64,000 bases of DNA, taken from the NCBI GenBank assembly GCA_028288405.1, contig JAQBNS010000097.1, forward strand, positions 1-64,000, given 5' to 3'. This document shows, in pieces, positions 26,233 to 29,072 of this stretch. A model generated the notes under the pieces. That model had not been told where the DNA came from. It ran no database searches and saw nothing but the letters and a program-made list of their open reading frames with translations. The stretch comes from Chitinophagaceae bacterium. GTDB lineage: Bacteria; Bacteroidota; Bacteroidia; Cytophagales; Cytophagaceae. Position 1 is the first letter of the stretch, and each line of letters begins with the position of its first letter. The translations under genes and the position numbers were made by a program.

Positions 26233-27327
26233 ATGGTAGGCTACCGTTTTACCGAATACATTCCTCCTAAGACCAAAGAGGAAAACAAGTTTGATGACTT
26301 ACTGAAAATATTTTTGGAACTCGTGACCATGAGCGGTGGTGATGTAGCAGAGTCATTAAGCTGGTTGACTAATCTGGACAAGCAATACAATCTTACGGAT
26401 AAGGATTATGGAATCGGTAATTTCATTGAGGACCTGAAGAGCAAGGGATATATTTCCGAAGGAGGCGAAAAAGGAGAAATTACCATTACGCCAAAAAGCG
26501 AGCAGAAAATCAGAACCAGTGCGCTGGATGAAATTTTCGGCAAACTAAAAAAATCAGGTAAGGGTAGTCACTCCACAAACTACACCGGCGTAGGCGATGA
26601 ACAAGGCTCTGATCATCGTGCCTTTGAATTTGGCGACGGCATCGATCAGATTTCCATTACCGATTCGTTGCGCAATGCGCAAATCAATAATGGCATGGGC
26701 GGTTTTATGTTGACGGAAAATGATTTGGAAGTCATCGAAAACGAATACAAAACACAAACATCCACGGTGTTGATGATCGACATCAGTCACTCCATGATTC
26801 TTTACGGCGAAGACCGCATCACGCCGGCGAAGAAAGTAGCCATGGCGTTGGCAGAGCTGATCACGAAAAATTATAAGAAAGACACACTGGATATTATTGT
26901 CTTTGGTAACGATGCCTGGCAGATTGAAATCAAAGACCTGCCTTATCTGCAAGTTGGTCCTTACCACACGAATACCATTGCCGGACTTGAACTGGCAATG
27001 GACTTGCTGCGCAGGAGGAAGAATAAAAACAAGCAGATCTTCATGATCACAGACGGCAAGCCGACTTGTATGAAGCAAGGGATTAATTATTATAAAAACA
27101 GTTTTGGCCTTGATCCACAAATCCTGAATAAAACATTGAACCTCGGCGCACAATGCCGTCGTCTAAAAATTCCGGTGACGACATTCATGATTGCATCAGA
27201 TCCTTACCTGAAAGAATTTGTGAGAGAATTTACTGAAGTCAATAATGGTCGTGCTTACTATAGTGACCTTAATGGATTGGGCGACCTTATTTTCGAAGAT
27301 TATAAAAAGAACAGGAAAAAAAGATAA
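26233..27327 (+). CDS. VWA-domain protein (MoxR/chelatase partner type)
   Basis: The 364-residue protein has an N-terminal helical part (about 1-175) and a von Willebrand A domain (about 175-355). The metal-ion-dependent adhesion site reads DISHS at about 183-187, with FMITDGKPT near 272. Such VWA proteins usually work with a MoxR/BchI-type AAA+ ATPase, here encoded at 27549. The pair may remodel protein complexes or insert a metal; the substrate is unknown. A structured repeat lies in the 221-base space between the two genes. Confidence 0.85.
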   Translation: MVGYRFTEYIPPKTKEENKFDDLLKIFLELVTMSGGDVAESLSWLTNLDKQYNLTDKDYGIGNFIEDLKSKGYISEGGEKGEITITPKSEQKIRTSALDEIFGKLKKSGKGSHSTNYTGVGDEQGSDHRAFEFGDGIDQISITDSLRNAQINNGMGGFMLTENDLEVIENEYKTQTSTVLMIDISHSMILYGEDRITPAKKVAMALAELITKNYKKDTLDIIVFGNDAWQIEIKDLPYLQVGPYHTNTIAGLELAMDLLRRRKNKNKQIFMITDGKPTCMKQGINYYKNSFGLDPQILNKTLNLGAQCRRLKIPVTTFMIASDPYLKEFVREFTEVNNGRAYYSDLNGLGDLIFEDYKKNRKKR

Positions 27328-27335
27328 AATAATTT

Positions 27336-27457
27336 GCGTGAGGGATAGGAGCGGAAAGCCCACAGCGAGCAACTTGGAAATAGTAACCATAAGAAAATTT
27401 CCTAGCGTCCCGAGGCTTCGGGATGTCGCGGATAGCCCGACCCGAAGGGACACGCCC
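27336..27457. repeat. Structured intergenic repeat (GCGGAAAGCCC ... GCGGATAGCCC)
   Basis: The element runs from GCGTGAGGGATAGG to GGGACACGCCC. It has two direct copies of GCGGAWAGCCC (27351-27361 and 27428-27438) around a variable middle that itself forms hairpins (GGAAAT/ATTTCC, CCCGA/TCGGG), and its ends pair GCGTG with CACGC. From memory, closely related elements with conserved arms and variable middle are common in Bacteroidota intergenic regions. Confidence 0.7.
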
Positions 27458-27548
27458 AACAACACCTTATTTTTCTCATAAAGATTAGTCTATACTACCG
27501 ATAAATTTTAACCTACTATCATCGATTTACTGCATAATATAATCCTAT

Positions 27549-29072
27549 ATGAATTACCAAGATATCCCCGGCAATAAACTCACACAACTCACAACACTTG
27601 GCGAACTGAAGGCAGCAGGCTATGAACCCATCGGAATCAAGGAAGAACTTCGCAACAACCTGATTGCCCAACTGCAACAAAAAAAATCGGTGTTTGCCGG
27701 TATTTGGGGATACGAAGATACGGTTATACCGGAAGTGGAACGCGCTATACTTTCCCGACACAACATCAACTTCCTAGGCTTAAGAGGTCAGGCAAAAACT
27801 CGTCTGGCTCGTATGATGGTGAAGTTGTTGAATGAATATGTACCGGTCATCAAAGGTTCTGAACTGAACGATGATCCCTTGAATCCTATTTCTAGTTTTG
27901 GTTTTCAACAGATAGCCGAGCACGGTGATAAAACGCCCATCGCCTGGCTACATCGCGACGAACGTTATACAGAGAAGTTGGCTACACCTGATGTATCCAT
28001 TGCAGATTTGATCGGTGATGTAGATCCTATCAAGGCGGCCACATTGAAATTGCCTTATTCGGATGAACGAGTGATTCACTATGGTTTGATTCCGCGTGCA
28101 CACAGAGGATTGTTTGTGATCAATGAATTGCCGGATTTGCAGGCAAGGATACAAGTAGCACTGTTCAACATTTTGCAGGAAGGAGACATACAAATCAGAG
28201 GATTCAAATTGAGATTGCCTTTGGACATACAATTTGTATTCACTGCCAATCCGGAAGATTATACGAACCGAGGAAGCATCGTCACGCCATTGAAAGACCG
28301 TATCGACAGCCAGATCATTACACATTATCCGAAGTCCATAGAAATAGGAAGAAAGATTACCGGACAGGAAGCAGATTTCAAAAAAGAACAATTGGACAGA
28401 GTCGGGCAATTTGAATTGGCAAAAGACCTTATCGAACAAATAGCCATGGAAGCCAGAACCAGCGAATTTGTGGATGCCAAGAGTGGGGTGTCCGCGCGTC
28501 TTACGATTTCTGCGTATGAAAATCTGATCAGCACGGCAGAGCGTCGTGCCTTGATCAATGGCGAAGAAAAAACGGTATTAAGAATATCAGATTTAGCCGG
28601 AGCGATTCCTAGTATAACGGGTAAAATTGAATTGGTCTACGAAGGCGAACAGGAAGGCAGCAATAACATTGCGCACAACCTGATCAGCAAAGCCATTCGT
28701 ACGCAATTCGTCCATTACTTCCCGAATCCTTTAGAAATTAAAAAACTAAAAAATAAACCAAACCCTTATAAAGCCATTACCAATTGGTTTGAAAAAGGCA
28801 ACATGGTGGACTTGTTACATGATTTGAAAGGTGCAGAGTATGCTAAAACATTGGTGTCTATCCCAGGACTAAAAGAGTTGGTGGAATTTTATCAAAAGGA
28901 TAAATCTGAAGAAGAGAAACTGTTCCTAATGGAGTTTGCACTATACGGCTTAGCAGAATACAGCATGCTCAGCAAGCATGAGCTGGAAACAGGCGCTCAA
29001 TTTAAAGATTTATTGAGTTCTATGTTCTCTATGCCAACGATGGAAGACGAAGAGCTGGATGATGAGAAGTAG
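27549..29072 (+). CDS. MoxR/BchI-type AAA+ ATPase
   Basis: The 507-residue protein has an AAA+ domain of the magnesium-chelatase/MoxR clade: the Walker A variant FLGLRGQAKTRLARM near 75-89, a hydrophobic stretch LFVINELPDL near 190 with the Walker B acid, and FTANPEDYTNRGSIVTPLKDRI near 232-253. The C-terminal 200 residues are helical with no recognised catalytic domain. It presumably forms a hexamer and acts with the VWA protein upstream. It is longer than typical MoxR (about 330 residues) and closer to chelatase-type fusions. Confidence 0.85.
   Translation: MNYQDIPGNKLTQLTTLGELKAAGYEPIGIKEELRNNLIAQLQQKKSVFAGIWGYEDTVIPEVERAILSRHNINFLGLRGQAKTRLARMMVKLLNEYVPVIKGSELNDDPLNPISSFGFQQIAEHGDKTPIAWLHRDERYTEKLATPDVSIADLIGDVDPIKAATLKLPYSDERVIHYGLIPRAHRGLFVINELPDLQARIQVALFNILQEGDIQIRGFKLRLPLDIQFVFTANPEDYTNRGSIVTPLKDRIDSQIITHYPKSIEIGRKITGQEADFKKEQLDRVGQFELAKDLIEQIAMEARTSEFVDAKSGVSARLTISAYENLISTAERRALINGEEKTVLRISDLAGAIPSITGKIELVYEGEQEGSNNIAHNLISKAIRTQFVHYFPNPLEIKKLKNKPNPYKAITNWFEKGNMVDLLHDLKGAEYAKTLVSIPGLKELVEFYQKDKSEEEKLFLMEFALYGLAEYSMLSKHELETGAQFKDLLSSMFSMPTMEDEELDDEK

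Follow-up and report, generated by a model that had tools for sequence, protein, structure and literature searches.

Flavo-1 (RF01705) was described in 2010 as a candidate structured RNA of Bacteroidetes that is probably an RNA and probably not cis-regulatory, according to the part of the report devoted to it (Weinberg 2010, PMC2864571). Rfam gives it the type 'Gene; sRNA'. Flavo-1 matches in F. psychrophilum are said, in the relevant passage, to lie sense or antisense to transcripts indistinctly, many of them outside transcripts (PMC9723704), and the entry in a review lists the family without a function (PMC9029176). Indeed, none of these literature passages on Flavo-1 names a function. An excerpt of another study reports palindromic candidates in Bacteroidetes (PMC8040213). 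The better known dispersed repeats, REPs, are palindromes of 20-40 bp with a GTAG or CGTC tag at one end (PMC3733652), and they are reported to facilitate Rho-dependent termination (passage in PMC2817692, citing Espeli 2001). Excerpts on Rho itself describe its binding sites as stretches of RNA, at least 70-80 nt long, that are free of structure, rich in C and poor in G (PMC6407284), and Rho-terminated RNAs as being trimmed back to a stem-loop (PMC9927376).

The window, by which we mean the whole stretch of 64,000 nucleotides that was analysed, contains at about 27333-27460 a folded element of about 120 bases. A previous sequence-only reading had pointed out two conserved arms around a variable middle at this place, and both arm sequences that it cited are found in the window, with a VWA gene on one side and an AAA+ gene on the other (Table 1). 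The element is real and belongs to a multi-copy family. Covariance model R1 was built from alignment A1 of 26 copies from the same genome (A1 took in 26 of 30 loci, the script having dropped copies with altered or missing ends), and it finds 132 copies in this genome at E<=0.001, the window copy among them at 92.0 bits. An exact search of the genome gives 22 hits for the 16-base 3' core and none for its reversed control; when up to one mismatch is allowed, there are 69 hits for the 12-base core, and once more none for the control. Nine pairs of copies are close and inverted (G000 C94, C123 (two), C143, C98, C109, C56, C31 and C162), arranged start-to-start or end-to-end with 1 to 120 bp between them, and L235:1371-1691 consists of three tandem copies with a period of 130 bp.

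Table 1. Parts of the element and neighbouring genes in the window
Feature	Position	Strand	Basis or remark
VWA-domain gene, upstream	26233..27327	+	8 nt from stop codon to outer stem
Outer stem, 5' strand GCGTG	27336..27340	+	partner 27451-27455; compensatory variants in 98 copies of this genome
5' arm	27342..27358	+	GGG, A.G, TA, GNA/GGA 3x3 loop, GC, GGA/GNA 3x3 loop, AAG
5' arm pairings	GGG with 27436-27438, TA with 27433-27434, GC with 27428-27429	+	RNAalifold and covariation
Inner 5' arm CCCACAGCGAG	27359..27369	+	pairs with GCGAGGACTT in most copies; alignment
Variable middle	27370..27407	+	alignment of copies
Hairpin TCCCGAGGCTTCGGGA replacing the usual inner 3' arm	27408..27423	+	sequence, 26-copy alignment
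3' arm GCGGATAGCCC	27428..27438	+	sequence, genome counts, alignment
Junction hairpin CCC-GAA-GGG	27441..27449	+	far longer in some relatives
Outer stem, 3' strand CACGC	27451..27455	+	compensatory variants in 98 copies of this genome
Conserved 3' end, CC then A-rich	27456..27460	+	CCAAC here, CCAAA in most copies
G-poor, C-containing unstructured rut-like tail	27461..27538	+	5 G and 16 C in 78 nt
AAA+ (Mg-chelatase-like) gene, downstream	27549..29072	+	

The statement in the sequence-only reading that such sequences occur in many Bacteroidota genomes, together with its expectation of further copies, is borne out. The broader model R2, built from R1 matches with Flavo-1-type copies included, finds the element in 149 of 296 genomes of the class, counting our own; no more than 12 candidates were scored in each. 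Model R1 finds copies in 19 of 39 neighbourhood genomes, again with our own included and with 93 candidates scored per genome; there are 84-90 matches in three genomes of the same genus, 90 and 57 in two further genera and 0-13 elsewhere. The named stretches listed as bearing the element (80 of at least 106) are, going by their genus names, from Bacteroidota. The element is also found on mobile replicons. Blastn gives partial matches, none covering 80% of the query, in 63 plasmid records (42 Bacteroides, 10 Phocaeicola, 9 Parabacteroides, 1 Butyricimonas and 1 Moraxella); two phage records matched in the same way and two viral contigs by exact pattern. R2 matches each of the six that were scanned with it, which are three stretches from plasmids, one from a phage and the two viral contigs. 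One viral contig of 9.2 kb (L397) has three copies and genes that are phage-like as judged by eye, and a near-minimal element with almost no middle stands at the 3' end of a recombinase gene of a Bacteroides plasmid (L398:2999-3081). The element is at the 3' end of a recombinase gene in two annotated plasmid stretches, which represent one Bacteroides plasmid backbone, and at least 80% of this recombinase stretch is present in 30 of the 32 records that have it. As no record with an empty site turned up, we take what looked like an association with recombinases to be one inherited locus.

The Flavo-1 model (cmscan) matches the window copy over its full length, with 19.2 bits versus a gathering score of 42, and neither the window nor the 4 loci of this genome that were scanned contain a match at the gathering score. 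That score is reached at the element position by 9 of 40 loci, all from other genomes (7 of 20 and 2 of 20), and a further locus (L240) exceeds it at a second copy. R1, although a model of our own genome, finds five loci (L075, L076, L078, L092 and L085) at 38 to 78 bits, and these are the same places that lie above the Flavo-1 gathering score. According to the cmscan alignment Flavo-1 and the element share a consensus structure with GA-rich internal loops, and there are compensatory differences between the copies of this genome and Flavo-1-type copies. Since diverged R1 matches score above the Flavo-1 threshold and the scanned copies of our own genome below it, we assign the element to a superfamily of interspersed, structured repeats, found across the class, to which Flavo-1 also belongs, and not to RF01705 as currently defined. 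Neither this relationship nor the tail described below was noticed in the sequence-only reading.

The two arms fold with each other, giving one long imperfect hairpin with a three-way junction. From the outside inwards it consists of GCGTG/CACGC, the junction with its CCC-GAA-GGG hairpin, GGG/CCC, A.G, TA/TA and GNA.GGA, followed by GC/GC, GGA.GNA, AAG/CTT, CC/GG, a tandem GA step (GCGAGC/GCGAGC) and the variable middle. RNAalifold on the 26 copies independently recovered 22 of the 24 pairs that we had drawn by hand, and no others. These copies tell little about covariation, because their arms hardly vary, save for hairpin replacements in three of them. More diverged copies are informative. 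Among 22 of them, 18 of 24 pairs changed on both sides and 98.1% of the cells remained paired, compared with at most 46% in slid controls; among 38 class-wide matches the values are 20 of 23 pairs and 98.5% (slid controls at most 50%), and among 98 copies of our own genome, subtypes included, 17 of 24 pairs and 97.6%. All three alignments were fitted to the model and are thus biased towards it. RNAalifold on alignment A2 kept 22 of 24 pairs, 16 of them with changes on both sides. The outer stem alone reads GCGTG/CACGC in 54 of the 98 copies, GCGTT/AACGC in 32, GCATT/AATGC in four and GCATG/CATGC in two. The folding energy of the whole element is no better than that of shuffled sequences, so the case for the structure rests on covariation.

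The covariation that the sequence-only reading suggested to look for is thus strong in the arms, and none of it concerns hairpins of the middle. Indeed, the view that the middle has hairpins of its own cannot be generalised: in 42 clean copies the folding of the middles is on a par with that of shuffled sequences (mean z +0.16, with 2 of 42 below -2). The description "conserved arms, variable middle" is itself accurate, given the near-invariant arms; the inter-arm stretch, as cut by the script, is 35-39 nt long in 41 of the 42 clean copies and has a weak consensus. In our own genome G-U pairs exceed A-C mismatches by 38 to 4 among 2244 cells of 98 copies on the modelled strand, which would speak for a fold in a single strand. 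The cross-genome alignments have 15 G-U and 10 A-C in 1337 cells. This last ratio looked like parity and led us to consider strictly Watson-Crick pairing as a sign of a function in DNA, an idea that was dropped on the count from our own genome.

The window copy is atypical. Most copies have GAGGACTTG as the inner 3' arm, and in its place the window copy has the hairpin listed in Table 1, as does one other (L011) among the 26 aligned; these two copies are without the usual partner of the inner 5' arm. The GNA partner of the 5' arm reads GTC in the window (27425-27427). Hairpins of the same type replace part of an arm, on either side, in three copies altogether (L018, L011 and the window copy). 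At the 3' end, the profile of 94 copies has C and C at 95%, followed by A at 59, 80 and 67%. As to the genes around it, VWA and AAA+ are 12-100 bp apart between aligned ends in seven relatives that have no element between them and about 200 bp apart in two further relatives; in three relatives compared at this site no VWA match was found. Because the two genes are adjacent in element-free relatives, to say that the element splits a gene pair is fair, and it may divide what was formerly a VWA/AAA+ operon.

The unit is longer than was first thought. The interval quoted in the sequence-only reading has both arms, but it leaves out a G-poor and unstructured tail of about 78 nt on the 3' side, which the element has in this genus. 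In 95 copies the 78 nt past the 3' arm average 7.8% in G against 20.5% in C; there is more C than G in 94% of the tails, and at least twice as much (and at least 10 of 78) in 72%. Two sets of element-free intergenic regions serve as controls. The 155 regions after stop codons have 19.0% G, with C above G in 44% and at least twice G in 5%, and the 187 regions before start codons have 15.2% G, with corresponding values of 59% and 19%; the difference in G gives p values of 1e-32 and 1e-23, respectively. Mean RNA folding energies are -4.6 kcal/mol for tails, -16.8 after stops and -10.4 before starts. The tail is G-poor irrespective of gene context (7.6% in tandem copies of the same direction, 5.8% in tandem-opposite, 7.8% in convergent and 8.7% in divergent ones), even where it faces the stop codon of an opposite gene, and it is therefore a property of the element rather than of promoters.

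The same holds for the same-genus genome G003, where 55 copies have 6-11% G out to about 100 nt. At five G003 sites without the element the whole gap has 18-34% G, although two of the five, being long, may include coding sequence. Where the tail could be read in both species, at 18 occupied sites, neither has more than 13% G. Low G is retained although the flanks can no longer be aligned, which suggests that the composition of the tail may be under selection. The tail is not a class-wide feature: read in steps of 20 nt across the first 80 nt, G amounts to 12-21% in the other genera and to 15-21% in the A3 tails. In seven copies from plasmids and phages the tail has 7-15% G, and very G-poor tails also occur on some named contigs of other genera. 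Within the tails, cytosines are not regularly spaced (the longest C-free run averages 14.1 nt in 98 tails versus 14.4 in shuffles). No T-run follows the hairpin in 94 copies, where CC-AAA gives way to mixed A/T, and no terminator-like site was found at the window's element.

The location of the copies relative to genes was studied for 99 of the 132 copies in our own genome, with neighbours identified by a crude search for open reading frames (80 aa, ATG starts). Of the 95 that could be classified (three of them overlapping an open frame), the flanking genes are tandem in 60, divergent in 23 and convergent in 12. Tandem copies prefer the direction of the genes, 44 versus 16 (p 0.0004); the split is 22:8 in G003 and 20:13, not significant, in other genomes. 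The claim that the element must be transcribed, made for the window copy on account of the probable operon, does not extend to the family, since 16 of the 95 copies are antisense to both neighbours. The two sides of the element are quite different. A called gene comes within 45 nt on the 5' side of 37 of 93 copies, and on the 3' side of none of the 93; the corresponding values for other genera are 18 and 12 of 57. Moreover, a 5' neighbour comes to within 20 bp of the element in 26 of 54 cases where it is co-directional, and in 1 of 39 where it is opposite. Going by the proximity to stop codons and the empty 3' side, the element prefers the spot right after a sense stop codon and needs free sequence behind it. 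This preference and the excess of G-U pairs (38:4, and 15:10 across genomes) fit the single-stranded, RNA-like role that the sequence-only reading had suggested.

Some of the history of the sites can be reconstructed. In 642 kb of G003 we could bracket 25 of our sites, of which 19 are occupied, a proportion inflated by the choice of stretches around G003's own copies. With occupancy and subtype read by a motif script, all 19 occupied sites of this biased sample keep the orientation of the element; one is a divergent pair in both genomes. The subtype differs at six of them and is swapped within the pair at one, the C109 pair, whose two subtypes are exchanged in G003; at three the script left our own copy unclassified. 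The window's site has a type A copy in G002, another subtype with the same outer parts in G003 and, by eye only and without a model score, a partial and diverged relative in G001. Seven clean ortholog pairs, with one aberrant site (68) left out, have arms that are 92.6% identical, which equals the value for non-orthologous copies. The middles are 67% identical in orthologs and 63% in non-orthologous copies (p 0.14, not significant; 56% when shuffled), and the 3' flanks 0.607 and 0.577. The arms are thus held constant at orthologous sites, as far as seven pairs tell. Since they are kept while middle and flanks are near saturation, this points to constraint acting site by site, with some exchange between copies.

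We also looked for a relationship with Y1 transposases (PF01797), as the sequence-only reading had recommended, and the link to a REP-associated transposase (RAYT) was not found. In our own genome none of 8 Y1_Tnp loci has a copy within 1.5 kb, and in element-positive genomes the element occurs in 1 of 60 Y1 neighbourhoods (60 of 80 drawn up; these are mostly the best-scoring Y1 genes, and subclass 2.6 may be under-sampled). Across 296 genomes, counted regardless of phylogeny, 113 have both, 36 the element only, 88 Y1 only and 59 neither, a weak co-occurrence (odds ratio 2.1, p 0.004). Some genomes, such as G175 and G316, have no Y1 match and are yet rich in the element, with 12 of 12 scored candidates. 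Given the lack of linkage and the existence of such genomes, mobilisation by RAYT/IS200 was set aside. Our genome does contain RAYT-like genes of about 190 aa between inverted repeats of 51-60 nt with GCTGGCGC or similar hairpins (L255, L256 and L258), and L253 has repeats on one side; these repeats are a separate family. Elsewhere, a Y1 transposase gene (L074:513-1450) lies between its own, different GAAGTCCTTCGGACTTC hairpins, and a Flavo-like element is some 180 bp away.

What could such an element do? We infer that it may work in one direction as a Rho-dependent terminator or insulator, with its hairpin left as the protected 3' end of the mRNA. RNA polymerase leaving a gene would transcribe the hairpin and then the tail; Rho would load on the ribosome-free tail, where C exceeds G, and free the polymerase further downstream; 3'-to-5' exonucleases would then cut the tail back to the GA-rich hairpin, so that the mRNA has a stable end there. 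A copy that is antisense to genes, or that stands between divergent ones, would act in this same direction and stop antisense or read-through transcription, and the window copy would separate the VWA from the AAA+ transcription unit. In the past, copies would have spread as mobile or recombining DNA, by means of some enzyme. Our reasons for proposing a terminator are that the tail resembles the RNA described for Rho loading, that trimming to a stem-loop is described as well, that REPs are reported to help such termination, and that a single rho gene is present in this genome (664 bits); the spacing relative to genes on either side and the low G of the tail in every gene context count for it too. 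We give this reading a probability of roughly 0.42, as the cytosines are irregularly spaced and the idea is derived from sequence. Certain observations are against it: 16 of the 95 copies run antisense to the genes on both sides, another 23 stand between divergent genes, and the Flavo-1 matches of F. psychrophilum are described in the passage cited above as sense and antisense alike, with many outside transcripts (PMC9723704). A rut site alone would not explain the strong conservation of the non-Watson-Crick modules of the core, and the absence of the tail across the class means that termination may not be the general role of that core.

A cis-acting stabiliser of mRNA 3' ends would share much of this evidence. 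Here the hairpin would block 3' exonucleases without any involvement of Rho, and the tail would merely be free of structure so that the hairpin can fold. The covariation of the arms, the 38:4 excess of G-U in our own genome and the placement after co-directional stop codons all agree with this; nevertheless, a tail of about 80 nt with some 2.6 times as much C as G exceeds what foldability needs, and the 23 of 95 copies between divergent genes have no co-directional mRNA upstream. In our opinion it is rather unlikely. The Rfam type and the conserved structure would be in line with independent small RNA genes, an option that more than 100 copies, a 3' end lacking a T-run and a placement tied to stop codons make very improbable. 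If the element were instead a DNA site for a chromosome-organising or replication protein, its occurrence in both orientations and in all intergenic contexts would be understandable, and so would the scarcity of G-U pairs (53 of 3581 cells in total), which are rarer than in control tRNA stems (19 of 254, no A-C) or TPP riboswitches (24 of about 470, with 12 A-C, by our own count). We regard this scarcity as weak evidence. An excess of wobble pairs on one strand is not expected of a double-stranded site, and in one closed genome, whose origin was not mapped, the 26 copies are split 13+/13- with no replichore bias evident by eye, so we consider such a site improbable.

It is also conceivable that the element is non-autonomous mobile DNA of the REP or MITE kind, folded as single-stranded DNA for some transposase and devoid of any host function, with its conservation reflecting past spread. 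Several findings speak for this: 132 copies with nine close inverted pairs, copies on plasmids, phage and viral contigs, a patchy copy number, some sites that are element-free in the sister species, and the weak co-occurrence with Y1_Tnp. Further, a TnpA-REP subclass, 2.6, which is mostly from Bacteroidetes, is flanked by atypical secondary structures copied elsewhere in the genome, as stated in an excerpt of PMC6006769. On the contrary, no clear target-site duplication is present, direct repeats of 3-8 bp at the ends being within the range of 200 shuffles (3-bp repeats in 43 of 94 copies versus a shuffled mean of 33.4 and maximum of 44, and those of at least 4 bp at or near the mean). The Y1 neighbourhoods hold next to no copies (0 of 8 and 1 of 60, with the reservation on subclass 2.6), and conserved orientation at 19 of 19 sites, biased as this sample is, and 93% identical arms amid saturated flanks make the copies look old and constrained. 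We therefore find it unlikely that the element is mobile DNA and nothing else.

Returning to the one-way stop, it can be extended to the whole superfamily: Flavo-1 and its relatives could be a portable one-way stop, with a nuclease-proof 3' end made of GA modules and a rut-like tail acquired where the element multiplied, at about 100 sites per genome. This wider proposal is rather doubtful. Several points are testable now, namely the fold extending through the outer stem and the three-way junction, the strand-specific G-poor tail and the one-sided rule of gene spacing, and cultured Bacteroidota lend themselves to ordinary 3'-end sequencing. If the tail does load Rho, these bacteria would rely on a dispersed repeat for a good share of their 3'-end formation.

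How, then, does the element relate to the known systems? Like Flavo-1, it has a 3-bp stem, A.G, 2 bp, the GNA.GGA loop, 2 bp and the GGA.GNA loop; unlike it, the Rfam model has 76 positions, leaves the outer stem and the junction hairpin unmodelled and has no tail. With REP and BIME sequences it shares many structured intergenic copies, inverted pairs and a frequent position 3' of genes. It differs from them in its much larger size (a core of about 90-125 nt), in its three-way junction, in ends (TT-GCGTG and CACGC-CCAAA conserved) where inspection found no GTAG/CGTC tag, and in that no linkage with RAYT was found. Intrinsic terminators are likewise hairpins 3' of genes, but here the hairpin is followed by a strand-specific G-poor tail instead of a T-run. 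Finally, the tail is like a Rho-dependent terminator, as defined in the excerpt of PMC6407284, in being about 78 nt of unstructured, G-poor RNA with C above G and without ribosomes; apart from the irregular spacing of its cytosines, it differs in being joined to a conserved, repeated and structured core.
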